NCBI GenBank assembly: GCA_030037735.1
Contig: JASHQC010000088.1
Span: 1-51,617 of the forward strand
Length of the DNA stretch: 51,617 bases
Origin: Thermoplasmata archaeon
GTDB lineage: Archaea > Thermoplasmatota > Thermoplasmata > Lutacidiplasmatales > UBA184
Reading direction: 5' to 3'
Shown here piece after piece: positions 9,042 to 27,807 of the stretch. The stretch's first letter is position 1. Each line of letters opens with the position of its first letter. Made by a program: the position numbers and the translations under genes. Under the pieces are notes generated by a model. It was not told the DNA's origin. It made no database searches and saw only the letters and a list, made by a program, of their open reading frames with translations.

Positions 9042-9049
9042 TTCTTAAG
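9042..9049 (-). promoter_or_regulatory. TATA-like box of the epimerase gene
   Basis: The minus strand reads CTTAAGAA, centred about 27 nt before GTG 9019. This supports a leaderless transcript and decides the start codon. Confidence 0.5.
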
Positions 9050-10549: not shown

Positions 10550-11425
10550 ATGAAACTCCTCATCACCGGCGCGGCGGGATTCATCGGCGCCCACTGTGTG
10601 AGGTACTTCACGGCGCAGGGCCACGACGTTGTTGCAACCGATATCGCCGCGAGGAACGGAATCCTCGCGCTCGACGTCGCCGACCCCGTGGCGGTCCACT
10701 CGATGGTCGCGTCGACCCGACCTCAAGTGATACTGCATCTCGCCGCTTTGGCGTCCGTTCCCCTCTGCGAGTCGGACCCGGAGACCTGCTGGAAAACCAA
10801 CCTACAGGGAACGGTATACATGGCCCAGGCCGCAGCGTACGGCGGCGCTCGAATCGTGTTCTTCTCGACGGCCGCCGTGTATGGCAAGCCCGACCAGCTC
10901 CCCACGCCGGTCACCGCGCCGGTCGCCCCCACGAATCTTTACGGGCTTTCGAAGGGCGGCGGCGAGCTCGCGGTCCGGGGATTCGCGAAGGACCACGTGG
11001 TGCTTCGGCTGTTCAACATCTACGGCGAGGGATGCGCTCGTTCGTACGTCATTCCGGACCTCATTCTGAAGCTCCGCTCGACCGATGGCGAGCTGCTGCT
11101 GCAGGGAACCGGCAACGAGTCGCGCGATTTCCTGTACATTTCGGATCTGCTGCGACTAATCGAAGCGGCCCTTTCGGCTCCCTCCGGGTCCGTCTACAAC
11201 GCCGGATCGGGCACGACGATCACCATCCGCGAGCTCGCCGCCCGCGTCGCCCGATTGGCCGGGCGGCCCGGAACGACCTTCCGGTTCTCGGGCCCACGCG
11301 CGGGAGACTTCCCCATCAATTTCGCAGACATCTCTCCGGGGAACGTGCCGCCCGGTTGGAAACCGCTCGTGTCGCTGGAGGACGGCGTCCGCCGGATGAT
11401 CCGAGAACAGACTCCGCCTAGCTGA
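10550..11425 (+). CDS. NAD-dependent epimerase/dehydratase (extended SDR)
   Basis: Nucleotide-sugar modifying enzyme of 291 residues. It starts with the Rossmann motif LLITGAAGFIGAH. HLAALASVPLCESDP and the NLQGT segment follow, then FFSTAAVYGK and LYGLSKGGGE, which give the Ser/Thr-Tyr-Lys catalytic set. LRLFNIYGEG and SRDFLYISDL are typical of UDP-glucose 4-epimerase and dTDP-sugar enzymes. The protein is somewhat shorter than the usual 310-330 residues because the region after the Rossmann beta2 strand is compact. ATG 10550 is preceded by GGAGGG at a good distance. The GT4 gene starts about 60 nt after it ends, so the two are probably co-transcribed. The exact sugar cannot be assigned. Confidence 0.8.
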   Translation: MKLLITGAAGFIGAHCVRYFTAQGHDVVATDIAARNGILALDVADPVAVHSMVASTRPQVILHLAALASVPLCESDPETCWKTNLQGTVYMAQAAAYGGARIVFFSTAAVYGKPDQLPTPVTAPVAPTNLYGLSKGGGELAVRGFAKDHVVLRLFNIYGEGCARSYVIPDLILKLRSTDGELLLQGTGNESRDFLYISDLLRLIEAALSAPSGSVYNAGSGTTITIRELAARVARLAGRPGTTFRFSGPRAGDFPINFADISPGNVPPGWKPLVSLEDGVRRMIREQTPPS

Positions 11426-12698: not shown

Positions 12699-12701
12699 GG
12701 T

Positions 12702-12761
12702 CACCCCCCCTCCACCGTGTCCCCCGGGCGCAAGGTGGGCCCGGGGGCGCGGTGAGGGGTG
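12702..12761 (+). terminator. Strong GC-rich hairpin after GT4 gene
   Basis: CCCCCGGG (12721-12728) pairs perfectly with CCCGGGGG (12740-12747). An outer stem forms from CACCCC and CACCG on the left with CGGTG and GGGGTG on the right, giving a stem of about 18 bp with a bulge. It starts 4 nt past the stop at 12698. There is no U tract. Confidence 0.5.
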
Positions 12762-12788
12762 TCTGGCGAGCCCCGCGGGTTCTCGATG

Positions 12789-12796
12789 CATATATC
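12789..12796 (+). promoter_or_regulatory. TATA box of the repeat-bearing surface protein
   Basis: CATATATC sits in otherwise GC-rich DNA just after the hairpin at 12702-12761. Transcription should start near 12818, leaving a leader of about 59 nt that carries the Shine-Dalgarno GGGAGGT used by GTG 12877. Confidence 0.55.
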
Positions 12797-12876
12797 AGCC
12801 AGAACCGCGTGTTACGCCTCCCCCCATCGGGGGGCGGGGGAGCCGGCGCCTCCCCCGCGAACGGGAGGTTGCCCGG

Positions 12877-15800
12877 GTGGAGCGGGGAAGAGAGATCGCT
12901 GGCTCGCCGGCCCTGAGTCGCTCGACCCGGGTCCGGCTGGAGGGAAGCGGTATCGCGCTCGCCGCGGCGTTCCTCGTCCTCGGCATGTTAGGCCTCCCCG
13001 CGTCGCCTCTCGCCGACGCCGGGTCTTCGGGGGTATCCGCCGCGGGGTCGGGCATTGCCGACCTTACGAATATCAGCGTGAGCAATGTCTCGCTCGAGGG
13101 CCCGGGTTCCCACTTCTGGGCCGTGTCGGTCGAGGGAGGCAACCCGGACCCCAACACCGCGTCGTTCAAGGGCTTCCTGAACGCGTCTCCCTTCACCGTG
13201 CTGCGGTACGGGGCGACTTGGGTCGACGAGGAGAACTGGTCGCGGGGATGCCTATACAGCGGGACCTCGACCTGCGAGCCAGTGCAAAACAACGTCACCG
13301 ATTACGCCCACCTCTGTCTCTCCTCCCCACGCTACTACTGTATCCTGGGCGTCCCCGCCGAGATCAACAACGTTTCCACGATGGCCTATGAGGTCGAGTG
13401 GCTCCAACGCACGACCGGTTGGGAACCCAACTGCTGGGCAATCGGGAATGAGCCGGCGGTGTGGACTCACTTTGGAATTCCGTGGAAATCTTGGCAATCG
13501 ACCGATAAGCGGACCCCTACCGCGGCCCAGTTTGCCCGCGTCGCGGAAAATTACACCGACACCCTGCGCTCGATCGACGGCCCCGGCACCTGCATCATCG
13601 GACTCGAGTCGAATGAGCCGATCTCCAACATCGAGTCCTTCACGAATGCCGTGACGACCGCGGTACCCAACGACACGGCCGTCTCCTTCCATTCCTATCC
13701 CGACAACGAGTGCACGCTCGATGGGGTAAAGGGAACAACCGCCCCGATCACCCAGCTCCTCTCCCCGGCGAACCTCACGCTCACCCTAGCCTCCTACAAC
13801 GACTCGGTGGCCTACGCGCACGGCCTTCCCGTGTACCTCCAAGAATTCAACATGGGTCACTCGAAGACCCCCACGTCGTGCAATCCGTTTGTGACCGGAT
13901 ACACGGACGCCGTGTTCACCTCCGCCGTCGTCGCTCAGGCGCTCACGTACGGGGTTCCCGAGTTCACTTTCTTCCACTTCGACTGCTACACGCCGGGTTG
14001 CCTCGTGAACGAGAGCACGGGGGTCCCCACTCCCACCTACTGGCTTTACACGGACCTGCTCTCCCAGATGGATCTCGAGCAAATCTCCGCGGTGAACTTT
14101 ACGGAGGGCGGGAGCCCGGAGACCTTCGCCGTTCTGGGAGAGAACGGAACCCACGACCGGACGCTGTTGCTCTCCAACGCCCAACCATACGGATGGCTCA
14201 ACCTCAGCGTCGCCTCGTTCCTGCCTTCCCTCCCCACGGACTGGCAGATGCAAGTCATCTCCCAGAACGCGGAGACCGGGGTGACGACCTCCCCAGTGTG
14301 GAACTTGACGACCGCGCCCGCCACTCTCGAGATCCGGAACCAGAGCACCGTGCTCGTGCATTTCTGGAGCAGCCTCCCCTTCTCTTCACCCGTGACCTTC
14401 ACGGAGACCGGACTGCCGGCCGGGACGACTTGGTCCGTAAGCCTCCCCGGTCAGGACCCGATCGAAACAACGATTCCGAGCTCCGGCAGTCCGGACCCCA
14501 CGATCACTCTGAGCGACGGGTCGTATTCCTTTTCCGAAGCGAGCTCGAACAGCTCCTGGGCCCCTCCTCCGGCCTTTCCGACCTTTTTCGTCGATGGTTC
14601 TTCCCTTACCATCCCGATCGCCTTCTCGCTGGTGACGTACCCGGTACAGTTCACCCAGACGGGTCTCCCCGACGGGACGGACTGGACGGTGACCTTCAAC
14701 GGCACCTCGTTGACGGGCACGACCTCGCCGACCCCCGACCCGCTCCTCTTCCCTGCGGTCCCCAACGGCACCTACTCGTACTCGATCGCCGACGTACCGG
14801 GATTCCATGAGACCACCCTTCCGTACACCGGTATCCTTACCGTCGTCGGGGCCGCTCTGGCCGAGACCATCGCCTTCAACTCGGTCAATTACACCGCCAC
14901 GATCTCGGAGTCGGGATTACCCTCCGGTCGTACGTGGAGCGTCACGCTGAACGGAACCCCGATGAGCCTCACAACCAATGGAGGGGCCGACACCCTTTCC
15001 TGGACCGGCCTGGAGAACGGGACCTACGCCTACGCTATCGCCGACAACTCGGGCTGGCACCAAACGGATCTCGCCTACAGCGGCTCGATTGTTGTGGATG
15101 GCGGGGTGCAGGCAATCGACGGCACCGGTATGGGCTACACCGACTCGTTGGCCTACACCCTGGTAACCTACGAGGCGACGTTCAGCGAATCGACGTTGCC
15201 GTCCGGGCTGACCTGGCAAATCATCCTCAACGGGATCACGCAGCAGCTCACCACCAATGGAGGGCTCGATACGCTGACCTGGTCGGGGTTGGCGAACGGC
15301 ACCTATAGCTACGCCATCTCGGACATCTCCGGTTGGCACCAGACGACCTTGCCCCAGAGCGGCGAACTGGTTGTGGATGGCCAGAACGCCGCCATCGATG
15401 GCACAGGAATCGGCGCGGCGTGGACGCTCGTCTACGGGGAGGCGACGTACTCGGTGACGTTCTCCGAGAGCGGGCTGCCTTCCGGTCTCCCCTGGAGTGT
15501 GACCTTCGATGGGGCGCCGTTGAGCCTCACGACGGACGGGGGGACCGACGCGCTGACGTTCAACGTGCCGAACGGCACGTACGCCTACTCGATCGTGGGG
15601 ACCCCGGGGTCCCACGAGAGCACGATCCCATATGCTGGCACGGAGACGGTTGCCGGAGCGGACGTGGTGGTGGGGGTGACCTACGTTCCAGTGACCTATT
15701 CGGTCTCGTTCACGGAGAGCGGTCTGCCCTCGGGCCTTCTCTGGACGCTGACGGTGAACGGGGCGGCGGAGGGGCTCACGACCGACGGCGGCACCGACAC

Positions 15801-16716
15801 ACTCACGTTCCTCGAACCCAACGGCACGTACGCGTACTCGATCACGGGCTCCCCCGGCTGGCACCAGAAGGCCCTTCCGTATACCGGCAGCGTCACGGTG
15901 AGCAACGCCTCCGTGACGGAGCCGACGTTGGCCTACGCCGCGGTCACCTACAAGGCGACGTTCACCGAGAGCGGTCTCCCATCCGGGACCGAGTGGTCGA
16001 TCGGGATCGATGGCCAGACACTCACGTCGACCACCACGAAAATCGTCGCGGTCTTGGGCAACGGGACCTTTCCCTTTACCGTGAGCGACGTTCCGGCGTA
16101 CACGTCGACGCCGGCGACGGGGAGCATCACCATTTCCGGGGCCTCCGTCAGTCGAACGCTGAAGTTCGCCACGTCGGACTATACGATCACCTTCGCCGAG
16201 GGGGGGCTTCCCTCCGGCACCCAATGGTGCGTCGTGCTCACCCCGTCCGATGACTCGTTCTGCTCCACGACAACGACCATCCAGGTTCTCCAGCCGGATG
16301 GCTCGTACGACTACTCGATCACCGCAATCCCGGGCTACCACATCAAGACGGGTTCCTACGCTGGCGTCGTCACGGTAAACGGCGCCAACCCGGCCCGGAT
16401 CACGGTCAAGTGGACGGCGGTGGAGTACACCGTGAAGTTCGCCGAAACGGGACTCCCGAAGGACACGAGCTGGTCGGTGACCGTCGACGGGAAGACCAAG
16501 TCGGGCACGGCGAAGTCGATCTCGTTCAGCCTGGCGAACGCGACCTACGCGTTCACGATCACGGCCTCGGGATATTCGGCGAAGTCCACCCCGGCGAGCC
16601 CCCTGACGGTGGCGGGTGGCGGCGTGACCGTGGCAGTAACGTTCAGCGCGAGTGGCTCGTCGTCGAGCCCCGCGGGAACTGCGGCGAGCGAAGTCGGCCT
16701 TTCCCGACGGGAGTGA
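12877..16716 (+). CDS. Secreted glycoside-hydrolase-like protein, copy 2, with nine GLPSGTxW repeats
   Basis: A large exported protein of 1279 residues. GTG 12877 follows GGGAGGT by 6 nt and gives a clean signal peptide (VRLEGSGIALAAAFLVLGMLG). Residues ~60-490 form a TIM-barrel hydrolase-like domain related to copies at 197 and 24653. AIGNEPAVW holds a candidate acid/base Glu at about residue 192, and VYLQEFNMG a candidate nucleophile at about residue 323. From about residue 505 there are nine tandem repeats of about 80 residues, each opening with F-(T/S/A)-E-x-GLP-x-(G/D)-T-x-W and containing a (P/A)NGTY-type turn; they resemble PEGA-like beta domains. No C-terminal membrane helix is present, so the repeats may attach the enzyme to the surface or extend it. 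It converges on the gene ending at 16739. Confidence 0.75.
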   Translation: MERGREIAGSPALSRSTRVRLEGSGIALAAAFLVLGMLGLPASPLADAGSSGVSAAGSGIADLTNISVSNVSLEGPGSHFWAVSVEGGNPDPNTASFKGFLNASPFTVLRYGATWVDEENWSRGCLYSGTSTCEPVQNNVTDYAHLCLSSPRYYCILGVPAEINNVSTMAYEVEWLQRTTGWEPNCWAIGNEPAVWTHFGIPWKSWQSTDKRTPTAAQFARVAENYTDTLRSIDGPGTCIIGLESNEPISNIESFTNAVTTAVPNDTAVSFHSYPDNECTLDGVKGTTAPITQLLSPANLTLTLASYNDSVAYAHGLPVYLQEFNMGHSKTPTSCNPFVTGYTDAVFTSAVVAQALTYGVPEFTFFHFDCYTPGCLVNESTGVPTPTYWLYTDLLSQMDLEQISAVNFTEGGSPETFAVLGENGTHDRTLLLSNAQPYGWLNLSVASFLPSLPTDWQMQVISQNAETGVTTSPVWNLTTAPATLEIRNQSTVLVHFWSSLPFSSPVTFTETGLPAGTTWSVSLPGQDPIETTIPSSGSPDPTITLSDGSYSFSEASSNSSWAPPPAFPTFFVDGSSLTIPIAFSLVTYPVQFTQTGLPDGTDWTVTFNGTSLTGTTSPTPDPLLFPAVPNGTYSYSIADVPGFHETTLPYTGILTVVGAALAETIAFNSVNYTATISESGLPSGRTWSVTLNGTPMSLTTNGGADTLSWTGLENGTYAYAIADNSGWHQTDLAYSGSIVVDGGVQAIDGTGMGYTDSLAYTLVTYEATFSESTLPSGLTWQIILNGITQQLTTNGGLDTLTWSGLANGTYSYAISDISGWHQTTLPQSGELVVDGQNAAIDGTGIGAAWTLVYGEATYSVTFSESGLPSGLPWSVTFDGAPLSLTTDGGTDALTFNVPNGTYAYSIVGTPGSHESTIPYAGTETVAGADVVVGVTYVPVTYSVSFTESGLPSGLLWTLTVNGAAEGLTTDGGTDTLTFLEPNGTYAYSITGSPGWHQKALPYTGSVTVSNASVTEPTLAYAAVTYKATFTESGLPSGTEWSIGIDGQTLTSTTTKIVAVLGNGTFPFTVSDVPAYTSTPATGSITISGASVSRTLKFATSDYTITFAEGGLPSGTQWCVVLTPSDDSFCSTTTTIQVLQPDGSYDYSITAIPGYHIKTGSYAGVVTVNGANPARITVKWTAVEYTVKFAETGLPKDTSWSVTVDGKTKSGTAKSISFSLANATYAFTITASGYSAKSTPASPLTVAGGGVTVAVTFSASGSSSSPAGTAASEVGLSRRE
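14390..16650 (+). repeat. Nine protein-coding tandem repeats (GLPSGTxW module)
   Basis: Diverged in-frame repeats with a period of roughly 240-270 bases, inside the gene at 12877-16716. Each encodes a module that starts with a GLP-x-x-x-x-W core. Two central copies (starting near 15170 and 15460) and their neighbours share long near-identical stretches such as LTTNGGLDTLTW and LTTDGGTDTLTF, suggesting recent internal duplication. Confidence 0.7.
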
Positions 16717-16738: not shown

Positions 16739-18166
16739 TCAGCCGACCTGCGCGTACCCGCCCACCGAACGTTCGTAGTAAAAGAAGTTCCAGCTTGGCG
16801 GGACCCCGACGGCGAACGGGATCATGTATTCCGGTCCTAGCCGGACCGGGACACTGAGATTCCCTCCCGTGATCCGAAGGTTGGCGAAGGAGCCGTTGAA
16901 GAAATACCGAGAGACCGGGACCTTGGACGAAGACTGCCACTCGATCTGGGTATAGGCCGCGACGAACGCCGGTCCGGTGTACGGTATCGTGGCCGTCCAC
17001 CGGGCGTCCGGGGCGCTGACATTGTGGTCGATCAATGTGAAGACGATCTCCTGTAGGGCCGGCACGCGTTCGATCGTGAGGGTCAACACCGTGCCCGGCG
17101 GCGACGGGAATCCGGAACTGACGACCCCAATCTGGCTTTCCTGGAAGTAGAACGGATTGCACGCCTTGGGGACGTACCAGGGCGCGATATGGCCGTTCGG
17201 ATCCAGGTCGACGCCGAGCTGAAAGAACCCGTGGCACGTCGCGTAGTCGGCTCCGCCGGGATTCATCGCGTTGATCTGGACGCTCAAGATCCCCGTGCGG
17301 GGAACGTTCCAGTTCGCGAGACGAATCGTGCCTGACAGGGTGTCGAAGTGCGGGAGCAGGGTAACCAGGACCCCCGAGCCCTGGCCATATCCGTCGCTCG
17401 GGTTCGGAGCGAACTGGTCGTTCAGCGCCTCGGCGATCTCGTACGTCGTGAGGATGTAGTCCGTGTACGCGACTTGACCCGCGGTCGTCAGAATGAGCGC
17501 TTCGGTGTACCGCCCTGCCGCCGGAACGGAAAGGCCGACAGTGGCCGGGAACGCGGTCTGGTCGACAAAGACGTCCATCCGCCATTTCGCCGCCGTAGAG
17601 TTCGCCCCGTTCACTCGGTAGACGTTGGCCGTCACGTACGTCCATCCCGGGGGCTGGGCGGTCCCGCGCGGCACCGGTCCGAGGTCTGAGAGGTGCGTCA
17701 CTCCGGGCCCTGCCCAGATCTGGCCCCCTCCAACTCCGATGAGGAGTACGGGCGCGCCGCTCGCACCCAGTCCGATGAATCCGGAAGCCCCGGGCCCCGT
17801 GTGGATCTCGCCTTGAATCGAGAGGAACGGCTGGCCCACCACGATGCCGCGGGTGGCGAGATCGAGCTGGGGGTGATCTCCGGCGGACGAAACCAACGAC
17901 GGCTCGCCGGCGTAGCTGGGCCGGTTTTGAACGGTGAAGGAGCCTTCGAGCGCCCGCCAGCCATCGGCCTGGAGATCTTCAAAGGTCGAGACAAAGGCAA
18001 ACGCCCCCCGGGGAGCGAACGCGGCGGCCGACGGACCGCGCACTTCCCGTACGGGTGCGAGGGACTGGGCGGCGGACCCCGGAAGCGCTGCCACGGCGGG
18101 AATCAGCAAAGCCGACGCGAGAAGTAATGCCATGATGGGCCGAGAAGGACGGTGACCGGCCCGCAC
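16739..18166 (-). CDS. Secreted protein of unknown function
   Basis: An exported protein of 475 residues that I do not recognise. The signal peptide is clear (PIMALLLASALLIPAVAALPGSAA). The body is rich in beta strands, Gly and aromatic residues. Its first half opens FEDLQADGWRALEGSF and resembles a concanavalin-like lectin jelly roll in texture, which is only an impression. Several Asn-X-Ser/Thr sites (NSTAAK, NVSAPD, NGSFAN, NLSVPV) suggest glycosylation. There is no C-terminal anchor. GTG 18166 lies about 25 nt after a TATA-like GAGTAATAGCC, consistent with a leaderless message; ATG 18133 would give a shorter signal. It lies between the repeat protein and the sulfotransferase, so a role at the cell surface is likely. 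Confidence 0.6.
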   Translation of the reverse strand: MRAGHRPSRPIMALLLASALLIPAVAALPGSAAQSLAPVREVRGPSAAAFAPRGAFAFVSTFEDLQADGWRALEGSFTVQNRPSYAGEPSLVSSAGDHPQLDLATRGIVVGQPFLSIQGEIHTGPGASGFIGLGASGAPVLLIGVGGGQIWAGPGVTHLSDLGPVPRGTAQPPGWTYVTANVYRVNGANSTAAKWRMDVFVDQTAFPATVGLSVPAAGRYTEALILTTAGQVAYTDYILTTYEIAEALNDQFAPNPSDGYGQGSGVLVTLLPHFDTLSGTIRLANWNVPRTGILSVQINAMNPGGADYATCHGFFQLGVDLDPNGHIAPWYVPKACNPFYFQESQIGVVSSGFPSPPGTVLTLTIERVPALQEIVFTLIDHNVSAPDARWTATIPYTGPAFVAAYTQIEWQSSSKVPVSRYFFNGSFANLRITGGNLSVPVRLGPEYMIPFAVGVPPSWNFFYYERSVGGYAQVG

Positions 18167-18294: not shown

Positions 18295-19281
18295 TCACGT
18301 ACCGGTGCGCCGTCGGTAGCCGTAGAGCCGGGCGAGCCATCCCGAACTGAGCCAAAAGAGCGCCCGGCTGGCACGGGGCAATCGGGTCGTCCAGCCGAAA
18401 TCCCCCTTCAGCACGATGGATCCCTGGAGGCGATTGCGGTTCCCGGCGGCGATATGCCGCATTGGGATCGGTTCCTGCGCTTCCACCCGCGCGATGACTG
18501 CGCTCAGGTCCACGCCCGCGAACCGACCGATCCGCTCGAGGGTCTCTCGGGGATGCGTGACCAGGTCCTCATACCGAACCCGGAGATACCGGTTCCGATC
18601 TCCCGAGCAGAGGAGCGTAGCGAAGAGATTGCCCGCGACCCACCTCGCCACCACAAAGGGAGGGAACCGGATCCAAGGTCCTCCGGCTTCGGGACTGTCC
18701 TTCAGCTGCGACTCCGACCAGAGAAGCGCCCGGCCGTCCCGGACGAGGTGAAGGTATCTCACCGAGAGCCGTCGAGGGTCGTTCAGCCGATAGACCCAAC
18801 CGCGGAGGGCGCCGAGACTCGATTCCACGATCAGCCGAGAGCCGGTGTCCCGAGCCAGGATCCGAAGGAATGCCTCCATCGCCTCCGTGTGCCGTTGGAG
18901 TTCCCGTCGTGCGGCGCCCCGGGCTGACAACGTCCGGAGAAGCGAACTCCAGGTTTCATAGCGAAGCTGGCCGTTCCGCAGGTCTTGGAGGCGTTGCGCC
19001 TGCTCTAACTCCTGACGTACAGGCGCCCAAAGCGCGCAACTGAGCACCGGGCTCCCGCACGAACACAGCCGGGCCGGGTCCCCCGGGGTCCATATCGGTG
19101 AGGGAAAACGATACAGTTCGCCCACGAAGAAGATCTCCGGATGCCCGGCGAGCACGGCCCCGAGCGCCGTCGCTCCCGATTTGTGGTGTCCTACGATGTA
19201 CAGCAGCTCGAGCGGCGGAGTACCCGCGGCGGGAGCGGCTCTCTCGGCCAACGGGACCGCCGTCACAAACCTCCGTCCCAA
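18295..19281 (-). CDS. PAPS-dependent sulfotransferase
   Basis: A cytosolic or membrane-associated P-loop enzyme of 328 residues that should move sulfate from 3'-phosphoadenosine 5'-phosphosulfate to a sugar or other acceptor. IVGHHKSGATALGAVLAGHP near the N-terminus matches the 5'-phosphosulfate loop. LHLVRDGRALLWSES matches the 3'-phosphate motif, and YEDLVTHPRETLERIGRFAGVDL is the usual sulfotransferase C-terminal element. A Cys-rich insert (CSCGSPVLSC) after the first motif is common in prokaryotic members. The ATP sulfurylase and APS kinase genes next door, on the other strand, supply its donor. The start is ambiguous: TTG 19281 is used here, but GTG 19266 right after GGAGGTT is as plausible. 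A TATA-like AAATTAAAG lies at 19325-19333. Confidence 0.85.
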   Translation of the reverse strand: MGRRFVTAVPLAERAAPAAGTPPLELLYIVGHHKSGATALGAVLAGHPEIFFVGELYRFPSPIWTPGDPARLCSCGSPVLSCALWAPVRQELEQAQRLQDLRNGQLRYETWSSLLRTLSARGAARRELQRHTEAMEAFLRILARDTGSRLIVESSLGALRGWVYRLNDPRRLSVRYLHLVRDGRALLWSESQLKDSPEAGGPWIRFPPFVVARWVAGNLFATLLCSGDRNRYLRVRYEDLVTHPRETLERIGRFAGVDLSAVIARVEAQEPIPMRHIAAGNRNRLQGSIVLKGDFGWTTRLPRASRALFWLSSGWLARLYGYRRRTGT

Positions 19282-19602
19282 GAGGGGCCGATTTCGCTCC
19301 CGATCTTCATCCGCGATCTGCCCCCTTTAATTTGGCCCCTGGAGAGGGGATCTGAACTGCCCGAGGGACACCCGGGCCACGGCTCCTCCGTTCCTCCGGA
19401 ACCCTCTGCTCGCTCATAGTGCGGTGGTTGGGGCCCGGTTCCACTATCCCGGGAACCGCTGACGGGCATAAGACGGGTCGGGGCGGGTTGCCACCGCGAA
19501 AAGCCTTTCCACCGCTACGTCTGCGGCTCCCGGCCGCACGGCGGGATCGCTCCGGGTACCGGCGTCTACTCCGTCCCGGCGCCACTCCCCCTTCGTGGTT
19601 GG
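19282..19602. other. Divergent promoter region of sulfotransferase and ATP sulfurylase genes
   Basis: No gene is supported here. The minus-strand promoter is clear: CAAATTAAAG at about 19325-19334, placing the sulfotransferase transcript start near 19303 with a GGAGGTTT ribosome-binding sequence in the leader. On the plus strand GCATAAGAC at about 19467-19475 is the best TATA-like candidate for the sulfurylase, with a leader of about 100 nt. The two genes therefore share a control region and may be co-regulated. Confidence 0.5.
19325..19333 (-). promoter_or_regulatory. TATA box of the sulfotransferase gene
   Basis: The minus strand reads AAATTAAAG in a GC-rich setting, 44-67 nt upstream of the two candidate starts of the sulfotransferase. 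Confidence 0.5.
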
Positions 19603-20781
19603 ATGGACGCCTTCATGGAACCAGCGCCGCACGGGGGAAAACTCGTTAACCGCCAGATGTCCGAGACCGAGAGAACTCGGCGCGAGGGGGAGCTGGGCGA
19701 CCTCCCCCAGCTCGTCCCTTTCGTGGACCAAATTTACGATACGGAGAAGATCGGGATAGGCGCCTACAGTCCCCTGGAAGGTTTCATGGACTCGGCCACG
19801 CTCGATTCGGTGCTCCGCGCAGGCCGGCTTCCGAATGGGCTGCCTTGGACTATGCCCGTGCTCCTCCCAATCCCCCCGGCCACCGACCCGGAGATTGCCG
19901 CGAGGCTTCAACCGGGAGAGGAGGTCGCCCTGCTGGACCCCGGCCGTCGGTTCCTCGGCCTGCTCCACGTGACCGAGCGGTTCCGTTACGACAAGAAAGC
20001 CCTCGCCCAATCGGTGTACGGAACGACCGACCCGGCCCATCCGAACGTGCAGGACCTGGCGACGGCGGGCGAGGAAACGCTCGCCGGAACAGTCGAACTG
20101 GCCCAGCGTCTGGCGTTGCCCCGGGGCCGATCCGAGATGACCCCGGCGGAGACACGGGCGGCATTTGCCGCCAAGGGATGGAAGAACGTGGCGGCGTACC
20201 AATGCCGGAACCCCCCGCACACCGCCCATGAGTACATCCAGCGGCTGACCCTGGAACGGGAGGACGTGGACGGCCTGCTCGTCCATCCGGTCGTCGGCCG
20301 GCTCAAGAAGGGAGACTACCGCCCGGAGGTGATCCTTCAGGCCTACGAAGCGCTGCTGACCCACTATTATCCCGCCGACCGCGTCCTGCTGAGTCCGCTC
20401 ACAATCTCGATGCGCTACGCCGGTCCGAAGGCGGCGCTCTTTCTGGCCATCGTCCGGAAGAACTACGGTTGTGGGCTCTACATTGTGGGACGGGACCAGG
20501 CCGGCGTGGGCCGATTCTACGCCCCGACGGCCGCGCACCGGATTTTCGACGAATACGATATCGGCGTGACCCCTCTTCGGTACGATGAGTCCTTTTTCTG
20601 CCGTTCTTGCGGTTGGATGGCGAGCGCGAAGACGTGCGCCCATCCTCCCTCCGACCGGATCGACACGAGCCAGACCCGCATCCGCAAGGCGCTAAGCGAC
20701 GGCGGCGAACTTCCGGTCGAGCTTCTCCGACCGGAGGTCGCGGCGATCCTCCGCGGGCCCGACGTCCTGCTCACGGAGTGA
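19603..20781 (+). CDS. sat: Sulfate adenylyltransferase (ATP sulfurylase)
   Basis: Makes adenosine 5'-phosphosulfate from ATP and sulfate. The 392 residues match the single-chain bacterial and archaeal Sat family. PHGGKLVNR near the N-terminus is a family hallmark and supports the start. QCRNPPHTAHEY at about residues 205-216 carries the HxxH nucleotide-binding motif. MRYAGPKAAL and GRDQAGVG are the other conserved blocks; the last is usually GRDHAG, so His is Gln here. FFCRSCGWMASAKTC near residues 330-345 looks like the zinc site seen in Thermus-type enzymes. The APS kinase follows 208 nt later with its own TATA-like box. No sulfite-forming reductase lies in the window, so the product more likely feeds sulfation than assimilation or respiration; this is inference. 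Confidence 0.95.
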   Translation: MDAFMEPAPHGGKLVNRQMSETERTRREGELGDLPQLVPFVDQIYDTEKIGIGAYSPLEGFMDSATLDSVLRAGRLPNGLPWTMPVLLPIPPATDPEIAARLQPGEEVALLDPGRRFLGLLHVTERFRYDKKALAQSVYGTTDPAHPNVQDLATAGEETLAGTVELAQRLALPRGRSEMTPAETRAAFAAKGWKNVAAYQCRNPPHTAHEYIQRLTLEREDVDGLLVHPVVGRLKKGDYRPEVILQAYEALLTHYYPADRVLLSPLTISMRYAGPKAALFLAIVRKNYGCGLYIVGRDQAGVGRFYAPTAAHRIFDEYDIGVTPLRYDESFFCRSCGWMASAKTCAHPPSDRIDTSQTRIRKALSDGGELPVELLRPEVAAILRGPDVLLTE

Positions 20782-20989
20782 CAACCCCCGGCTCCCCGTG
20801 CCCCTCGCGTCGCAAGGATCCAGCGGACGCCTTCCTGATCCCGCCGGGCCGTTACAAAATCCTTGCCCAAGTTCCTCCGGTCTTCGGGTCCGATGGGGCC
20901 TCGACCGGGCGGGGAGAATACGTTCCCCTACGCATAGCGAAACGGCCATAAGCTAGGGTCACTCCTCCCGCGACCCTCAGGTGGTCGGC

Positions 20990-21595
20990 ATGGCACCTCG
21001 CGCCGCCGGATTCTGCATTTGGCTCACGGGGCTCCCGAGCGCCGGGAAGACCACCATCGCCCACGAGCTGACGCCGCTGCTTCGGGCCCGCGGTTGGTAC
21101 GCCGAACTGCTCGACGGGGACGAGATCCGGAAGGGACTGAGCGCGGACCTCGGGTTTGATCGGAAATCCCGCGAAACGCACGCCGGCCGGGTCGCGTTCG
21201 TCGCGAAGCTACTGGCGCGGAACGGGGCCATTCCGCTGGTCGCTCTCATCTCCCCGTACCGGACCTCGCGGGCCAAAGCCCGGACCGAGATCGGTCGTTT
21301 TGTCGAGGTGTATGTCAACACCCCATTGGACGTCTGCGAGCAGAGGGATGTGAAGGGGCTCTACAAGCGGGCGCGGGCGGGCGAGATCAAGGACATGACG
21401 GGCGTCGACGATCCCTACGAACCCCCGGAGGCCCCGGATCTCGTCGTCGATGCGGTGAGAAACAGCCCCCGTGAGTCGGCGGTGTACATCGTCCGGGAGC
21501 TCGAACGCCAGGGTTGGCTTCCTCCGGCCAGTCCGACCGACCTCCCGGTGGGATTTCCCGAGTCCTCCCCTTCTCGCTCCTGGGCCACGCCATAG
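20990..21595 (+). CDS. cysC: Adenylylsulfate (APS) kinase
   Basis: Phosphorylates APS to PAPS, the donor for sulfotransferases. The 201 residues include the P-loop GLPSAGKTT, DGDEIRKGLSADLGF, the ISPYRTSR block, and the loop VYVNTPLDVCEQRDVKGLYKRARAGEIKDMTGVDDPYE, all diagnostic of CysC. A freestanding kinase of about 200 residues is the normal bacterial size. ATG 20990 is preceded by CAGGTGGT; a GTG nine bases upstream is an in-frame alternative. GGCCATAAGC at about 20942-20951 is a TATA-like box. It sits between ATP sulfurylase and a HAD phosphatase on the same strand. With the divergent sulfotransferase it completes a three-step sulfate activation and transfer set. Confidence 0.93.
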   Translation: MAPRAAGFCIWLTGLPSAGKTTIAHELTPLLRARGWYAELLDGDEIRKGLSADLGFDRKSRETHAGRVAFVAKLLARNGAIPLVALISPYRTSRAKARTEIGRFVEVYVNTPLDVCEQRDVKGLYKRARAGEIKDMTGVDDPYEPPEAPDLVVDAVRNSPRESAVYIVRELERQGWLPPASPTDLPVGFPESSPSRSWATP

Positions 21596-21676
21596 GCCAC
21601 GGGGTCCGGTGGGGGGCAAGGTTCCTGTGTTCGGAAAGTCCCTCTCCCTGTCCCGCGGCGGGGGCCGCAATCCGTG

Positions 21677-22504
21677 ATGGCCGTCCCCGGTCCCTCCTCT
21701 CGCGCCGCCCCCGAAGCGCTCCGGGGGGGCGGCCCTCGCCTCCAGATCCTGCTCGATTTCGACGGGACGCTCGTCGAACCGAACGTTGCGATCGTTCTCG
21801 TCGAGCGGTTCTGCCCCGATGGCCAGCGAGTGGCCCACGAGATCGACCAAGAGCTGCACGCCGGACACATCACCTTACGCGAGGCCTGGGCCCGTCAAGT
21901 CGCGTTGCTTCCCCCGTCCCGCCTCCACGAAATGACCGACTTCGTGGCCCGGGAAGTCCCTCTACGTCGTGGCGCCCGGCGGTTGCTCGGGCTTCTCCGC
22001 GAGCACAACGTCCCGACCGCGATCGTGTCCGGTGGACTCGAATTCTTCATTCGCCCGGTGCTGGCGCGCGAAGGGCTCGAGTACCCGCTGTTCGCCGACG
22101 GAATCGAATACGACGGGGAGGCGCGGCTCCGCGTCGTGCACCCGTACGGGCATCCGACGTGCCGGCTCTGCGGCATCTGCAAGGCCAACGTGGCCCTACG
22201 CTTCGGCGCGCCAGGGGTCTCGACGGTCTTCATCGGGGACGGGAGCACGGACAAGTACGCCGCCGAAGTGGCGGAGATCGTCTTCGCCCGACATCGCCTC
22301 CAGGAGTACTGTGCCCGGGCCAACGTCCCTTTCTTCCCGTTCGACGATTTTGACCCTGTGACGAACCGGCTGGAAGGATGGCTCACGGGGGTCCATCCGC
22401 TGCCGCCTCCTCGTTCCCGGGGGCTTGCCACAAGCGCCTGCCCGATTTCTCAGGAACTCTCCCGGAGTCCCCCCCGAGACGTGGGGCAGGGTGTGGTCCG
22501 CTAG
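21677..22504 (+). CDS. HAD-superfamily phosphatase (MtnX/SerB-like)
   Basis: A cytosolic phosphatase of 275 residues in the haloacid dehalogenase superfamily. LLDFDGTLVEP holds the Asp nucleophile (DxDGT form), VSGGLEFFI the Ser/Thr motif II, and VFIGDGSTDKYAA the acidic motif IV. CRLCGICKAN inserts a Cys cluster where the methionine-salvage phosphatase MtnX has CGCCK, so this is the closest type I recognise. No other salvage gene is nearby. Its place 81 nt after APS kinase hints at dephosphorylation of a sulfate-transfer product such as 3'-phosphoadenosine 5'-phosphate, but known PAP phosphatases belong to other folds, so this is speculative. ATG 21677 is used; GTG 21674 is equally possible. 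The last ~40 residues look disordered. Confidence 0.7.
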   Translation: MAVPGPSSRAAPEALRGGGPRLQILLDFDGTLVEPNVAIVLVERFCPDGQRVAHEIDQELHAGHITLREAWARQVALLPPSRLHEMTDFVAREVPLRRGARRLLGLLREHNVPTAIVSGGLEFFIRPVLAREGLEYPLFADGIEYDGEARLRVVHPYGHPTCRLCGICKANVALRFGAPGVSTVFIGDGSTDKYAAEVAEIVFARHRLQEYCARANVPFFPFDDFDPVTNRLEGWLTGVHPLPPPRSRGLATSACPISQELSRSPPRDVGQGVVR

Positions 22505-22526: not shown

Positions 22527-24032
22527 TTACGATCGGACCTGGCCCCAGCCGATTCTCGGGCCCGACCCTCCCGGGGGGCGGGATCGAGGGTTCGTTGGCG
22601 CGGATTCGGACTCGTGAACATCGTGGAGTTCCTCGTCCGTCTCTTGGACCGAAATCCCGTTAGCCTGCAAGAAGGTCGAGCGTACCCCCCGGTCATCGGT
22701 GTACAGTTTGGCCGCGAGGTCGCGAATCGGATCGAGGAGGTCGCCGGGGCTCTTCGGCGAAGGCAGATAGCCCCCGCTGCGCGCGGCGGGCGTGGGAGAC
22801 GGGCCCGTTCCCGGGGGCCTGTCGTACATTTCGCGACCCGGCATCTGCACATAGAGCGCCCGACGGCCCCGGCCGAGCCGGATGACCGGACCCACGTGCC
22901 CGCTCGAGGGAACCGGCGGGTTGAGGACCGACGTCGTCGGAGCACGGCTCCCTCCGGACGTAGCCACGGGCGGGGAAGCAGGACCAGGGAGAGGAGCGGG
23001 GAGGGGAGGCTCGGGTCGCACGACCACCCGGGGTCGAAGTCCGCTTCGTTCGAGAAGGAACGCCACCGCGTGGGCATCGGGCTCTTGCGATGGCGGGGTG
23101 ACGAGGATCAGGTCCCCCCCGCCCACCAACGCGGTCACTAGGAGATCTCGGATGACTGCCGGTAGGGAGGACGTGGCGGGAGGCGCCGCCTGCAACGACT
23201 TGTGGCCGTGGCGGATGATGCTGAGCAGGATCCGAATCCCGTCCGAGACCGCGTGGAGCTTCGGCTCTCCGACCCGCTCGCCGTACGGGATGGGGATCTG
23301 AAAGATTGTCCAGCCGGCCCGCTGGCCCTTGAGGAACAGCTCCGCCTCGATGCCGAAGTCGTGGGACAGAATGTTGAGCTCCCGGGCCCGCTCGACCTGG
23401 ACTCCCCAGAAGCCGCTGCACACGTCCAGAATTCGGGAGCGGCTGACCTGGCCCGCGACGAAATTGAGCAACGCGTTCCCGATCCGATGCACCAGCTCCC
23501 GGGTGTTCCGGGGGGGGCCGGTCCCCGTTTGTCGCACACCGACCACGAGATGACTGCCGGCATCCAGGAGTTCCAGCGTGGGCAGAACCGACTTTCCGGG
23601 GTACGACCCATCGGCGTCGAGCACCACCGCGAACTGAACGTTCCTTTCGGCGAGCCAGTCGAGCGCCTCCCGAATCGCCCCTCCTTTTCCGTGGCTCTTC
23701 TGACGGAGCACCGGGACGCCCCAGGAAGCGGCCACCTCGGTGGTGCGGTCGATCGACCCACCGTCAACGACCAAAGGTCGCACCCGCCACCCGGCGGCCG
23801 CGAGTCGCTTGAAAGGAATGCTGAGGAGGGTCTGGGAGAGCCCGGCCTCCTCGTTCAGCGCCGGTAGGATGATCGCGGCGTTCGCCTCCTCGAACGAGCC
23901 GGCCATCACGAACGGGGAAGTGGAGTCCTGGCTCAAAAACGGGGCGGTCGATTCGGGCCGATGATCAGCTCGCCCCTCAATGACGTATAACGGAACCGAG
24001 GCGCTAGAAAATGATTCATCGATGGTTGCCAT
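22527..24032 (-). CDS. GT2 glycosyltransferase (dolichyl-phosphate sugar synthase-like) with long C-terminal extension
   Basis: A GT-A fold enzyme likely to make a polyprenyl-phosphate sugar or to transfer a sugar at the membrane. AIILPALNEEAGLSQTLL starts the domain, VVDGGSIDRTTEVA and VLDADGSYPG give the nucleotide and metal DxD-type sites, and CSGFWGVQV and IEAELFLKGQRAGW match dolichol-phosphate mannose synthase relatives. The catalytic domain ends near residue 300. The next ~200 residues are unusual: a short alpha/beta stretch (GGDLILVTPPSQEPDA), a Pro-rich linker, and an acidic tail. No membrane helix is seen. ATG 24032 gives a 42-residue disordered leader; ATG 23906 (MAGSFEEANAAIILP) fits the family better and may be the true start. 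It converges on the HAD gene. Confidence 0.8.
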   Translation of the reverse strand: MATIDESFSSASVPLYVIEGRADHRPESTAPFLSQDSTSPFVMAGSFEEANAAIILPALNEEAGLSQTLLSIPFKRLAAAGWRVRPLVVDGGSIDRTTEVAASWGVPVLRQKSHGKGGAIREALDWLAERNVQFAVVLDADGSYPGKSVLPTLELLDAGSHLVVGVRQTGTGPPRNTRELVHRIGNALLNFVAGQVSRSRILDVCSGFWGVQVERARELNILSHDFGIEAELFLKGQRAGWTIFQIPIPYGERVGEPKLHAVSDGIRILLSIIRHGHKSLQAAPPATSSLPAVIRDLLVTALVGGGDLILVTPPSQEPDAHAVAFLLERSGLRPRVVVRPEPPLPAPLPGPASPPVATSGGSRAPTTSVLNPPVPSSGHVGPVIRLGRGRRALYVQMPGREMYDRPPGTGPSPTPAARSGGYLPSPKSPGDLLDPIRDLAAKLYTDDRGVRSTFLQANGISVQETDEELHDVHESESAPTNPRSRPPGGSGPRIGWGQVRS

Positions 24033-24652
24033 CTAGTGCTCACATCCGTTCGGCCAATGCCGCCACCGAGCGTCTCACAGGACGGCGGACTTGACCGAGA
24101 GCAGAGATCCGGTCCGTGCCGATCTCACATGAAATTACGTCCAAGCCAAAAGTGCTCACCCGCGAGCGGCTGCGAGCCCCCGACGTATAACCCCCCTGCA
24201 GCGGCAAGGCTGAGACCCGGAGTGGGCCCGTAGGAACAACCCCCTAATAGACGTTCGTGCGACTCGTTACTAGCTCAAGCACAACCCGAAAGCATTCCGA
24301 CAGGTCCCGGATCTCCCCGAAACCGTCGAGCTCCGGTGAGGGGCGGGGGGGCCCCATAAATGTAAGGGAATTCTTTCCCGCTGAGACCCGGCGGCTGCGG
24401 GGGACGGGTAGCCGACTACCAAAACCCATCCGAAGCGAGGATGGAGTTCCCTCCTCCCCGCGGGCTGTCTCAATGGCCTCGACTCGTCCGAGGTTTCTCA
24501 GCAGAGGCGGCCGCGGAGGAACGGGGCAGAATCGTCTCCGAATGGGCCCGGAAGCGGGAAAATTTGCATTGGACAAAGGCGTATTTGTCGCGAGCCGGAC
24601 TTGCACCGTCAGCTGGAGCCCGAGGGGGGAGGGGGACGGGAGACCCAATCGG
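24033..24652. other. 620-bp region between divergent GT2 and hydrolase-like genes
   Basis: No convincing gene is seen. The plus-strand frame upstream of 24653 is open for 132 codons but encodes low-complexity Arg/Pro/Ser sequence typical of GC-rich non-coding DNA. AT-rich islands that could be promoters are CGTATAAC at about 24183-24190, CCATAAATG at 24354-24362 and GAAAATTTGC at 24558-24567; the last would place a plus-strand start near 24590, about 60 nt before ATG 24653. A small inverted repeat (GGGAA-TTCT-TTCCC) lies near 24365-24379. The sequence GACGTATAAC occurs both here and within the first codons of the GT2 gene. Confidence 0.4.
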
Positions 24653-26215
24653 ATGAAAGTTAGCGCCTGGAGTCTGGCGGCACTGGCTGTTGGCCTAACC
24701 ATTGCGCTGCTGGTGACTTCGTTCAGCGTTTCGACGATGTCCCCCGGAGTACCAGAGGGCCCTTCGGCCATTACCCCCCTTGACACCGCCACCGGTGCCG
24801 TGGTCGTAGGGGCCTTCTCACTCGCGACCCCAGCCCCGGCGGCATTCTGGGGCGTCAATGTTGCCGCCGCTCAGCGGTTCGATGCTGCCGATGCTGCCGC
24901 CGTCGCCGCGACCCCTGTGACCTACATCCGGTTCCCCGCCGGGGTACTCGGGGAGGAGTTCAACTACACTTCGGGGGTAATCACAGGTCAATCGGGTTCA
25001 CGGAGCGATGCCACTACCAGTACCAAAGAGTTCGTCGCCTCTTGCAAGACGATAGCCTGTCGAGCGATCCTGCAGCTGCCGGCGGAAATTGACTCCCCGG
25101 CGACCGCCGCGTACTACGCCAGCTACGTGGTCCATACCTTGGGATACCAACCGGCCTACTGGGAGATCGGAAACGGTCCCGCCGGTTGGACCCATTTCGA
25201 TCTCCCATGGTCCGAGTGGAAGTCCAAAGGCGGGGGGAACGCCACCCCTCTCCAGTTCGCCAATCTCGTTCATGCCTACATCCAGGCCGTCCTCAAGGTC
25301 GACCCAGCCGCTCAGTTCATCGCGCTGGGCGCCGGGATGGGGGCCAAGGACTATTCCAAGCCATGGGTCGAGGAGCTCGCCAAGGTAGATGGGAGCGAGC
25401 TGGCCGGAATCTCCGTTCACTCCTACGTCGAGGGAGGCCCCTCCCATCCAACGGACGCCGAACTGTTTGCGAACCTGAACGGAATCTACTCCCTCCCGGC
25501 CCAGGTCTCCGCCGATCGGTCGTACATCACGGCCGCCTGCCCGAGCTGCACAAAGCTCCAGATCTTCGTCTCCGAGATCAATGCCGCCGAAGCGAGCCCG
25601 TACAGCAAGCTTCTCCCGACGTTTGCCGGGACACTGTATCTCGCCGTGGAGACGGTCCAGGGACTGTCGCTCCATGTGGCCAACCTCGACTGGTTTGCCT
25701 ACGACAGCGACTACCAGGGGTCCTGGTCCCGGCACCCGATGGACTGGCAAATGCAGTACTTTCTGTTCAGTGACCTGCTGACCCATTTGTACCCTGACAC
25801 GCTCCCCACGACGGTGACGGGACCCTCGACCCTGTATGGGATCGCGACGTACGACCGGTCCGGCCTCGCCCTGCTCTTGGTGAATGTCGACACCTCGACC
25901 GCCGTGACCGTCAATATTGCCTCGGCAGGGTTTATCCTGGGTCGTGCCGACGTCACGCAGTACTCGTGGCAGGATGGCGCCCACGAGCCCACCAAGGCCT
26001 CCGTCGCGCTATCGAGCACCGTGAAGGTCCCGGCCATGTCGATCGTCCTATTGACCGTCGAGTCGGCCGGCATGAAGTCTCCCGCGTCCGGGAGCGAACC
26101 CGCTTCAGTGGTGATCACCCCAGTCGGTCCGCCCCGGACGTTCGAGCTGGTTTCGGGGTCGGAGGGCCTCACGGCCCCCGCGACGTTTGCGATCTCTAGC
26201 CGGGCCGACACCTAG
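24653..26215 (+). CDS. Secreted glycoside-hydrolase-like protein, copy 3, lacking the usual acid/base Glu
   Basis: An exported protein of 520 residues in the same family as 197-1690 and 12877-16716. ATG 24653 follows a GGGGGAGGGGG stretch and starts a signal sequence (WSLAALAVGLTIALLVTSF). The TIM-barrel-like domain has EIGNGPAGW where the others have GNEP, so the presumed acid/base Glu is Gly at about residue 175 (GGT at 25175-25177). The candidate nucleophile Glu remains in IFVSEINAAE at about residue 308. The C-terminal ~100 residues look like a small beta domain with TATYDRSG-type turns, followed by a Ser/Pro-rich end. It may bind glycans without cleaving them, or use another residue. It is followed by a flavoprotein gene 53 nt downstream. 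Confidence 0.72.
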   Translation: MKVSAWSLAALAVGLTIALLVTSFSVSTMSPGVPEGPSAITPLDTATGAVVVGAFSLATPAPAAFWGVNVAAAQRFDAADAAAVAATPVTYIRFPAGVLGEEFNYTSGVITGQSGSRSDATTSTKEFVASCKTIACRAILQLPAEIDSPATAAYYASYVVHTLGYQPAYWEIGNGPAGWTHFDLPWSEWKSKGGGNATPLQFANLVHAYIQAVLKVDPAAQFIALGAGMGAKDYSKPWVEELAKVDGSELAGISVHSYVEGGPSHPTDAELFANLNGIYSLPAQVSADRSYITAACPSCTKLQIFVSEINAAEASPYSKLLPTFAGTLYLAVETVQGLSLHVANLDWFAYDSDYQGSWSRHPMDWQMQYFLFSDLLTHLYPDTLPTTVTGPSTLYGIATYDRSGLALLLVNVDTSTAVTVNIASAGFILGRADVTQYSWQDGAHEPTKASVALSSTVKVPAMSIVLLTVESAGMKSPASGSEPASVVITPVGPPRTFELVSGSEGLTAPATFAISSRADT

Positions 26216-26268: not shown

Positions 26269-27807
26269 GTGGCCGAGTTCGACGCCGTGGTCCTCGGCGC
26301 CGGCCACAACGGACTGACCTGTGCCGCCTACCTCGCGAAGGCCGGACTGAACGTCTGCGTCCTCGAACGCCGGTCGATTCCTGGCGGCGCGACGATCACG
26401 GAGGAGCTCTGGCCCGGAATTCGCGTCTCCCGCGCAAGCTACGTTCCGGGTCTCATGGACAAGATCGTCTCGGACCTCGACCTCGTCCGGCACGGACTCG
26501 AACTCCACCCCGTGGATCCGCAGAACTTCGCGCCGTTCCCGAGCGGTCGTCACCTGTTCACGTATCTCTCCGACGAGCGTTGCCAGAGAGAACTGGCCCG
26601 CTTGTCAGCGAAGGATGCCGCGGCGTTCCCTCGATTCTCCCGGTTCCTCCGCCAATTCGCCGAAACGGTCGAGCCGCTCCTCTTGAGCCCGCCGCCGGAG
26701 TTGAGTGACCTGCTCGGCTTCTTCGAGGGAACCCAGCTCGAAGAGGTGGCCCGCCAGATCCTCCTCACCAGCTGCGCCGATCTGCTTCGGGAGACCTTCG
26801 AGTCGGAGGAGGTACGCGGCGCCTTCGCCATGAACGGCGTCCTCAACACCAGTATGGGACCGGATACGATCGGCACTTCGTACATCCTCGCCATGGCGCT
26901 CGGCAAGCGGGGGTACGATTACGCCGTCGGCGGCACGGGGGCGGTCTCCCGGGCCCTGGCCGCCTCGTTCGCGAGTCATGGGGGCGCGCTGTTCACCAAT
27001 TCGCCAGTGAAGCGAATCCTGGTATCCGACGGCCACGCCACGGGGGTCGAGCTCGCCGATGGGAAGCGGATCGCCGCCCGCCTCGTCGTGTCGAACGCCG
27101 ACCCCAAGCGGACGTTCCTCGACCTGCTCGAGCCGGGAACGCTCGACAGCGGGTTCGTGCACCGGGTGTCCAAGCTGCGGGCCTTCGGGACATCCCTCAA
27201 GATCAATCTCGCCCTTCGGGGCCCGCTCGAATTCCAGGCCCTTCCCGGCAAGGAGATCGGGCCCCAGCACCAGGCCCTGACCGACATCGGCCCTTCCCTG
27301 GACTACATTCAGAAGGCCTACGACGCCGCGAAGTGGGGAAGGTTGCCGGAGGAGCCTCCACTCAGCATCTTCTGTCAGACCGCCTGGGATGCCACGATGG
27401 CGCCCCCGGGGGTCCACACCCTCAGCATCATCGCAAAGTACAATCCCTATGTTCTCGCCACGGGCCGCTGGGACGACCTCAAGGAACGGGCGGTCGAGAA
27501 CGCCCTGAACGTACTAGAGCGCTATGCTCCCGGCACTCGGGCCCGAATCCTTCACCTGGAGGCGCTCACGCCGCTGGACCTCGAGAACCTGATCGGCCTC
27601 ACGGAGGGGAACGTCACCCACCTCGACCAGACGCTCAACCAGATGCTCTCCTTCCGCCCCTTGTTGGGATGGGCCCATTACCGAACGCCGGTCGAGGGGC
27701 TCTATCTCTGCGGGGCTGGGACGCACCCCGGCGGAGGCGTCAAGGGCGCTCCGGGCCACAACGCGGCGCATGTCATTTTGGAGGACCTGGGCCCCTCGGC
27801 GGGATGA
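26269..27807 (+). CDS. FAD-dependent oxidoreductase, CrtI/PYROXD2 type
   Basis: A flavoprotein of 512 residues from the phytoene-dehydrogenase-related group (COG1233 type). VVLGAGHNGLTCAAYLAKAG is the FAD-binding GxGxxG motif, followed by VLERRSIPGGATITEE. YAVGGTGAVSRALAASF and VKRILVSDGHATGVEL are conserved mid-protein blocks. YLCGAGTHPGGGVKGAPGHNAA at the C-terminus is the second FAD motif of the group. The sequence is closer to PYROXD2-like proteins than to true carotene desaturases, and no carotenoid genes are nearby, so the substrate is open. The start is GTG 26269. It is followed by a nested hairpin at 27816-27841. Confidence 0.82.
   Translation: MAEFDAVVLGAGHNGLTCAAYLAKAGLNVCVLERRSIPGGATITEELWPGIRVSRASYVPGLMDKIVSDLDLVRHGLELHPVDPQNFAPFPSGRHLFTYLSDERCQRELARLSAKDAAAFPRFSRFLRQFAETVEPLLLSPPPELSDLLGFFEGTQLEEVARQILLTSCADLLRETFESEEVRGAFAMNGVLNTSMGPDTIGTSYILAMALGKRGYDYAVGGTGAVSRALAASFASHGGALFTNSPVKRILVSDGHATGVELADGKRIAARLVVSNADPKRTFLDLLEPGTLDSGFVHRVSKLRAFGTSLKINLALRGPLEFQALPGKEIGPQHQALTDIGPSLDYIQKAYDAAKWGRLPEEPPLSIFCQTAWDATMAPPGVHTLSIIAKYNPYVLATGRWDDLKERAVENALNVLERYAPGTRARILHLEALTPLDLENLIGLTEGNVTHLDQTLNQMLSFRPLLGWAHYRTPVEGLYLCGAGTHPGGGVKGAPGHNAAHVILEDLGPSAG

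Follow-up and report, generated by a model that had tools for sequence, protein, structure and literature searches.

A putative glycan-sulfation locus with PAPS synthesis genes in an uncultured archaeon of the Candidatus Lutacidiplasmatales

What use does an archaeon make of activated sulfate when the genes that produce it adjoin a sulfotransferase gene and are embedded among genes for glycan assembly? The question is raised by a stretch of 51,617 nucleotides (the window; contig 3 of the archaeal assembly G000, 1.77 Mb, 85% complete, 1.4% contamination), in which a sulfotransferase gene, ST-A, diverges from the genes for ATP sulfurylase (SAT, sat) and adenosine 5'-phosphosulfate (APS) kinase (CysC, cysC), the pair that forms 3'-phosphoadenosine 5'-phosphosulfate (PAPS). 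This arrangement, proposed in an initial annotation made from the sequence, was confirmed as three open reading frames whose identities are supported by Pfam and NCBIfam. The host is a Thermoplasmatota archaeon and a congener of SubAcS15-31 (G005; JAKIWV010000001.1), which is listed under Candidatus (Ca.) Lutacidiplasmatales (PMC9287336); the window was therefore assigned to that order of acid-soil Thermoplasmatota. All evidence derives from metagenome-assembled genomes, for which one genome collection was scanned, and gene starts are uncertain.

The locus is likely to serve the sulfation of a glycan, with PAPS made by SAT and CysC and used by ST-A on a sugar. SAT would convert sulfate and ATP to APS, and APS kinase would convert APS to PAPS, from which ST-A would move the sulfuryl group onto a sugar hydroxyl. 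The acceptor would probably be an oligosaccharide, lipid-linked or cytoplasmic, assembled by the GT4 and GT2 glycosyltransferases and the epimerases encoded nearby; after flipping, the sulfated glycan would be exposed on surface proteins or form an envelope polysaccharide. Recycling of the remaining 3'-phosphoadenosine 5'-phosphate (PAP) would fall to a phosphatase, for which the candidates are the HAD enzyme encoded next to cysC and an IMP-family enzyme encoded elsewhere.

The sulfotransferase and its donor supply

The AlphaFold model of ST-A (pLDDT 81, pTM 0.84) has a sulfotransferase fold, with PAP-bound TPST2 and TPST1 as top Foldseek matches (E 2e-10 to 3e-8), alongside cyanobacterial olefin-synthase and CurM sulfotransferases. 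By sequence, the closest solved relatives are cyanobacterial PAPS sulfotransferases of polyketide pathways (4gox, E 6e-21). Across an alignment of six archaeal ST-A members, the 5'-phosphosulfate-binding loop is conserved (KSGAT/RSGST; KSGAT in the window) with G36 and T38 invariant, and its pattern is present in 75 of 85 relatives. The 3'-phosphate-binding motif VRDGR....S is likewise common to the six, the second arginine being glutamine in one; R181 and S189 are invariant and are paired by the HMM alignment with LMVRDGRASVHS of TPST2. The six also share CSCG and C-terminal H...GNR motifs. No membrane segment was predicted in ST-A, which appears soluble. From motifs and model together, we infer that ST-A is a PAPS-dependent P-loop sulfotransferase.

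The host genome holds three sulfotransferases of this family, the window copy and two encoded elsewhere; the latter, like a HAD phosphatase downstream of cysC, had been missed by the initial annotation. In the ST-A tree, 16 of the 18 archaeal genes fall in one supported clade, and the nearest bacterial relatives belong to Chloroflexota, Cyanobacteria and one pseudomonadote, so that the family was probably acquired from bacteria and then duplicated. Three ortholog pairs are common to the host and its relative YP4.bin112 (G061). That every one of the three paralogs has its own counterpart in a relative points to several positions of the acceptor being sulfated. A second sulfotransferase type, ST-B (RSGTS ... 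GHYEN ... WKDPWTVLTLE), occurs at L069:9374-10210, at L067:4609-5430 and in relatives, within glycosyltransferase clusters.

The SAT assignment draws on NCBIfam NF003166 (sulfate adenylyltransferase; 406.7 bits, cut-off 387), with TIGR00339 slightly below its cut-off (307 against 322.95 bits), and the catalytic motif RNPxHxxH is present in the translation as RNPPHTAH. The GRDHAG motif of ATP sulfurylases reads GRDQAG in nearly all relatives of family f1 (window 20134-20754) and GRDAAG in genus g3. APS kinase matches TIGR00455 apsK (207.7 bits, cut-off 138.7) and carries the P-loop GLPSAGKTT together with ISPYR and KGLY motifs. Further APS-kinase paralogs occur in the genus (L068 on G000:C38, L074, L075, L076 and L080), some without ISPYR and some in G003 and G004, where SAT was not found; in SubAcS15-31, a further ATP sulfurylase stretch, interrupted by in-frame stops (G005:C2:576982-577611), is probably a pseudogene. 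The mere presence of SAT was discarded as evidence for ST-A, as SAT occurs in about three-quarters of f1 genomes, for the most part not accompanied by ST-A; co-occurrence being weak, only physical linkage was counted.

PAP is an inhibitor of sulfotransferases. In class relatives a DHH gene adjoins SAT, and the DHH enzyme beside SAT in Pyrococcus is a proven pApase (PMC8268124). No DHH gene lies between SAT and APS kinase in the window and no match was found anywhere in G000, where a DHH or CysQ enzyme was accordingly rejected as PAP recycler: the one IMP-family gene (G000:C39) falls below both cut-offs, scoring between HisN and CysQ, and its product is an alternative candidate. The HAD-IB phosphatase next to cysC (HADp) may recycle PAP, its candidacy resting on close copies within 3 kb of SAT in G029 and G024; another copy lies in the glycan region of YP4.bin112. 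Two such cases among 13 other carriers have a chance of about 1 in 1000, on a rough post-hoc estimate. HADp was rejected as a fixed member of the module, because it is mostly distant from SAT in the 14 f1 genomes that carry it, while G005 and G002 yielded no close copy.

Gene neighbourhood and the acceptor

Physical linkage of these genes, which the initial annotation had proposed to look for in related genomes, was found. SubAcS15-31 encodes EPIM1, ST-A, GT4a, GT4b, GT2, SAT and CysC (gene names as in Table 1) inside 12 kb, and its locus then continues with genes syntenic with the window from 36420 on. Most parts are also together in YP4.bin112, where 21 kb hold HADp, GT2, EPIM2, GT4b, three ST-A genes, a Kelch protein, GH652, GT4a, EPIM1 and CysC. 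The counterparts of contigs C3, C58 and C63 of G000 form a single region in YP4.bin112. The SAT of YP4.bin112 was ruled out by the tree as an ortholog of the window SAT; two species therefore show the strict link to SAT, and three the link to CysC. As the arrangement recurs in independent assemblies, it is neither chance nor a binning artefact.

Most of the archaeal ST-A loci found adjoin glycosyltransferase or epimerase genes, GT4 and epimerase genes being the recurrent neighbours; GT4a adjoins ST-A in AcS1-45, JOPF135 and SubAcS13-64. A MOP-family flippase gene adjoins ST-A on G000:C58, and a flippase is encoded near ST-A in SubAcS15-31. On the donor side, GT2 adjoins SAT in G005, G028 and G030, and in the latter two (L097 and L098) SAT is co-directional with genes for an AglJ-like GT2, a phosphomannomutase, a flippase and a GT4. 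No Sulfotransfer_3 gene was detected in G028 and G030, whose sulfotransferase may come from another family. In G029, ST-B stands beside GT2, HADp, SAT and CysC, with a cis-prenyltransferase gene nearby. The gene neighbourhood thus favours a glycan acceptor, and a lipid-linked intermediate is suggested by the AglJ-like GT2, the flippase adjoining one ST-A and the G029 cluster with its cis-prenyltransferase. The oligosaccharyltransferase STT3 is encoded elsewhere in the genome, so that N-glycan, surface polysaccharide and glycolipid are all possible acceptors.

An acceptor of another kind, either tyrosines of the secreted Kelch, PKD or repeat proteins or a membrane lipid, with glycosyltransferases as mere neighbours, is unlikely. 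Tyrosylprotein sulfotransferases are the best structural matches of ST-A and large secreted proteins flank its gene, but in the HMM alignment to TPST2 the GE is kept, the following residue being leucine in ST-A, at the position of what we take to be the catalytic Glu99 of TPST. Moreover, the closest solved relatives by sequence belong to polyketide pathways, ST-A genes repeatedly adjoin GT4 and epimerase genes, and a cytoplasmic ST-A would act on proteins before export, unlike the lumenal TPST. The earlier inference of sulfation is thus retained as far as the use of PAPS is concerned, on the strength of absent reductases, three sulfotransferases, conserved motifs and linkage to glycosyltransferases and epimerases, with an exported glycan, rather than a lipid or protein, as the presumed acceptor.

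Glycan sulfation might also take a more elaborate form, to which we give a slim chance: a surface glycan resembling glycosaminoglycans and carrying several sulfates, in convergence with the heparan sulfate of animals, on which the three ST-A groups would act at different positions with PAPS made in the same locus, HAD-IB having replaced DHH/CysQ and secreted GH79-like (heparanase-like) proteins remodelling the product.

The neighbours named at the outset (glycosyltransferases, epimerases and secreted hydrolase-like or repeat proteins) are real according to profile searches and hydrophobic N-termini (Table 1). ST-A and SAT start about 320 bp apart, and by eye no clear archaeal TATA box was seen across 19282-19602, the only AT-rich stretch lying at about 19327-19335, on the ST side. 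HADp begins 79 bp after APS kinase, with GT2 beyond it on the opposite strand. The proteins at 12577-16716, 16739-18166 and 24257-26215 all have a hydrophobic N-terminal segment and matched no Pfam family; the last weakly resembles GH79/GH44 in sequence (E about 5e-4), and an AlphaFold model of this family (24653-26215) was discarded at pLDDT 38. Further copies of it lie near ST-A genes (L065:5938-7569, L065:7981-9567 and L066:7358-9919). A CrtO/CrtI-like carotenoid oxidoreductase is encoded at 26269-27807, adjoining the glycan region.

Table 1. Features of the sulfation locus and its surroundings in the window.
Feature	Position	Strand	Length, evidence and remarks
Kelch/PKD proteins	1835-7950		
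EPIM1, nucleotide-sugar epimerase/dehydratase, GalE/RfbB-like	8060-9118	minus	Profile searches
GT4a, GT4 glycosyltransferase	9136-10302	plus	Profile searches
EPIM2, nucleotide-sugar epimerase/reductase	10550-11425	plus	65% identity to G061 copy
GT4b, GT4 glycosyltransferase	11487-12698	plus	77% identity to G061 copy, which adjoins orthologous ST-A
Large secreted repeat protein, hydrolase-like N-terminal part	12577-16716	plus	Start probably 12877; 28 N-x-S/T sites
Protein with N-terminal hydrophobic segment	16739-18166		No Pfam family
Sulfotransferase ST-A	18295-19281	minus	328 aa; Pfam Sulfotransfer_3 47.5 bits (cut-off 27)
ATP sulfurylase (SAT)	19603-20781	plus	392 aa; archaeal single-chain type; Pfam ATP-sulfurylase 260.5 bits and PUA_2; ATG at 19657 may be the true start
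APS kinase (CysC)	20981-21595	plus	204 aa; Pfam APS_kinase 202 bits
HADp, HAD-IB (MtnX/SerB-like) phosphatase	21674-22504	plus	Pfam/NCBIfam; candidate PAP phosphatase
GT2 glycosyltransferase, AglJ/dolichyl-phosphate hexose transferase-like	22527-24032	minus	TIGR04182 3e-31, below cut-off
Secreted protein of a multi-copy family, weakly GH79/GH44-like	24257-26215	plus	Start probably 24653

Reductases and other uses of activated sulfate

PAPS could instead feed PAPS and sulfite reductases for cysteine synthesis, the sulfotransferase merely sharing the pool, a reading we regard as quite improbable and, within the window's genus, disfavoured. The earlier statement that the window lacks both reductases was borne out and extends to the rest of G000, in which no PAPS_reduct or NIR_SIR match was found at E <= 1e-3. 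In the other five congeners PAPS_reduct scores do not exceed about 23 bits, compared with 150-177 bits where other genera have a real CysH, and NIR_SIR gave no match; PAPS reductase was absent from searches of G000, G005, G002 and G061. NIR_SIR occurs in 5 of 61 relatives, none of them in the genus, and a published analysis of the order reports dsrAB solely in one other member, TMEG-bg1 (PMC9287336). These absences are credible because the SubAcS15-31 genome is nearly closed (93% complete, 5 contigs, one of 670,516 bp), and without recognisable reductases in the host and sampled congeners sulfation is the best reading.

What favours assimilation comes from further afield. In three relatives, all carrying ST-A, cysH, sat and cysC stand in a row (G062:C127, L217; G063:C33, L219; G065:C89, L218), the PAPS reductase gene lying immediately 5' of sat-cysC; the G062 copy of CysH matches NF002537 (phosphoadenylyl-sulfate reductase) with 210 bits (cut-off 154). 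The SATs of these genomes are sister to the window's SAT lineage (99/99), and ST-A was not found beside SAT in any of the three. The donor genes are therefore not sulfation-only across the order, and to call the module dedicated was an overstatement. Co-occurrence of reductase genes with sat-cysC, named beforehand as evidence against sulfation, is thus found in G062, G063 and G065 and is not seen in G000. The simplest history would be that sat-cysC worked with a reductase in one lineage and has been retained for sulfation in the window's genus.

SAT is thus found in several settings within the order (cysH-sat-cysC, aprBA-SAT and SAT-GT2-phosphomannomutase-flippase-GT4). That SAT runs in reverse with an APS reductase (AprAB) to gain ATP from sulfite, with APS kinase and sulfotransferase as minor side users, is very improbable: aprBA adjoins SAT in G027 (L096; AprA 929 bits, AprB 179 bits), members of the cluster lie beside SAT in G006 (L081) and G047 (L120), and sulfite oxidation has been proposed for the order, but through a molybdenum sulfite oxidase rather than AprAB (PMC9287336), and aprAB is not among the window genes, although G000 was not searched genome-wide for it.

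Several points weigh against glycan sulfation. Sulfation and its acceptor are deduced from genes. The host genome is only 85% complete, its single STT3 match lies on another contig (G000:C59), so that a link to N-glycosylation is not direct, and GT2, GT4 and the epimerases are assigned in general terms only. SAT without a detected Sulfotransfer_3 is frequent among f1 genomes, so that the presence of SAT by itself is hardly informative; the SAT of YP4.bin112 lies about 29 kb beyond the rest of its locus and belongs to a different lineage, and the nearest kin of the window SAT lineage stand beside CysH.

Comparison with known systems

If the proposed glycan sulfation is correct, the locus identifies the genes by which an uncultured order of acidophilic archaea would carry out sulfation from PAPS, and it points to a second archaeal route of glycan sulfation with a fold unlike that of the haloarchaeal Agl30/31. 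It also offers a case of one SAT/APS kinase pair put to different uses among close relatives. At low pH sulfate esters stay charged, while carboxylates are protonated; a sulfated coat would therefore be sensible for acid-soil archaea.

The initial description of such loci as rare was overstated, since other archaea carry a sulfotransferase adjoining a SAT/APS-kinase cluster (PMC8268124). Archaeal clusters of SAT, DHH pApase, in some a phosphodiesterase, and APS kinase are known from Pyrococcus yayanosii, Aciduliprofundum boonei, Ferroglobus and others (PMC8268124), and in the class relatives G042, G051 and G055 DHH, Sulfotransfer_1 and APS kinase are encoded consecutively, preceded by SAT on contigs that extend far enough to include it. 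The window shares with them the clustered PAPS-forming pair, to which a sulfotransferase is adjacent in some (PMC8268124), but it lacks genes for a CopG-like protein and for DHH, its sulfotransferase belongs to another subfamily and diverges from the donor genes, its setting is one of glycosyltransferase and epimerase genes, and its SAT and APS kinase sit on long separate branches of the trees. In other families and orders of the class (L112-L119), a conserved gene of about 75 aa precedes SAT, in the position of the Pyrococcus CopG-like regulator; the copy tested had no Pfam match.

Resembling the proposed system, Halobacterium salinarum encodes more than one glycan sulfotransferase in a glycosylation gene region, where Agl30 and Agl31 act on an N-linked tetrasaccharide; these belong to the alkaline-phosphatase superfamily, whereas ST-A has the P-loop PAPS-type fold of Sulfotransfer_3, genes for PAPS supply are not mentioned in that report (PMC11980604), and aglB is not in the window. 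The Agl3 UDP-sulfoquinovose route of Sulfolobus N-glycans also places sulfur on archaeal surface glycans by way of an epimerase-like enzyme, but Agl3 takes sulfite rather than PAPS and yields a sulfonate (PMC4388408). UDP-sulfoquinovose synthase was rejected as the identity of EPIM1 and EPIM2, which score 26.3 and 24.3 bits against the NF041015 cut-off of 575.

The sulfotransferase family is shared with bacterial clusters for sulfated exopolysaccharide or capsule and with the PF13469 sulfotransferases of Chloroflexota, Cyanobacteria and Actinomycetota, with 31-36% identity to ST-A, common CSCG/CACG and H..GN motifs and neighbouring glycosyltransferases in Anaerolineae and Caldilineae loci; the window is set apart from these by its archaeal host, an expanded order-specific ST-A clade and an archaeal-type SAT rather than CysDN. 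Sulfotransferases, PAPS and adenylyl genes are unmentioned in the main text of the order's description (PMC9287336), and no account of PAPS sulfotransferases in Ca. Lutacidiplasmatales was found in the open literature. Each part of the locus is ordinary; what is new is the combination and its host, a clade-specific, expanded P-loop sulfotransferase family together with donor synthesis inside a glycan locus, which amounts to a new arrangement rather than a new kind of system.

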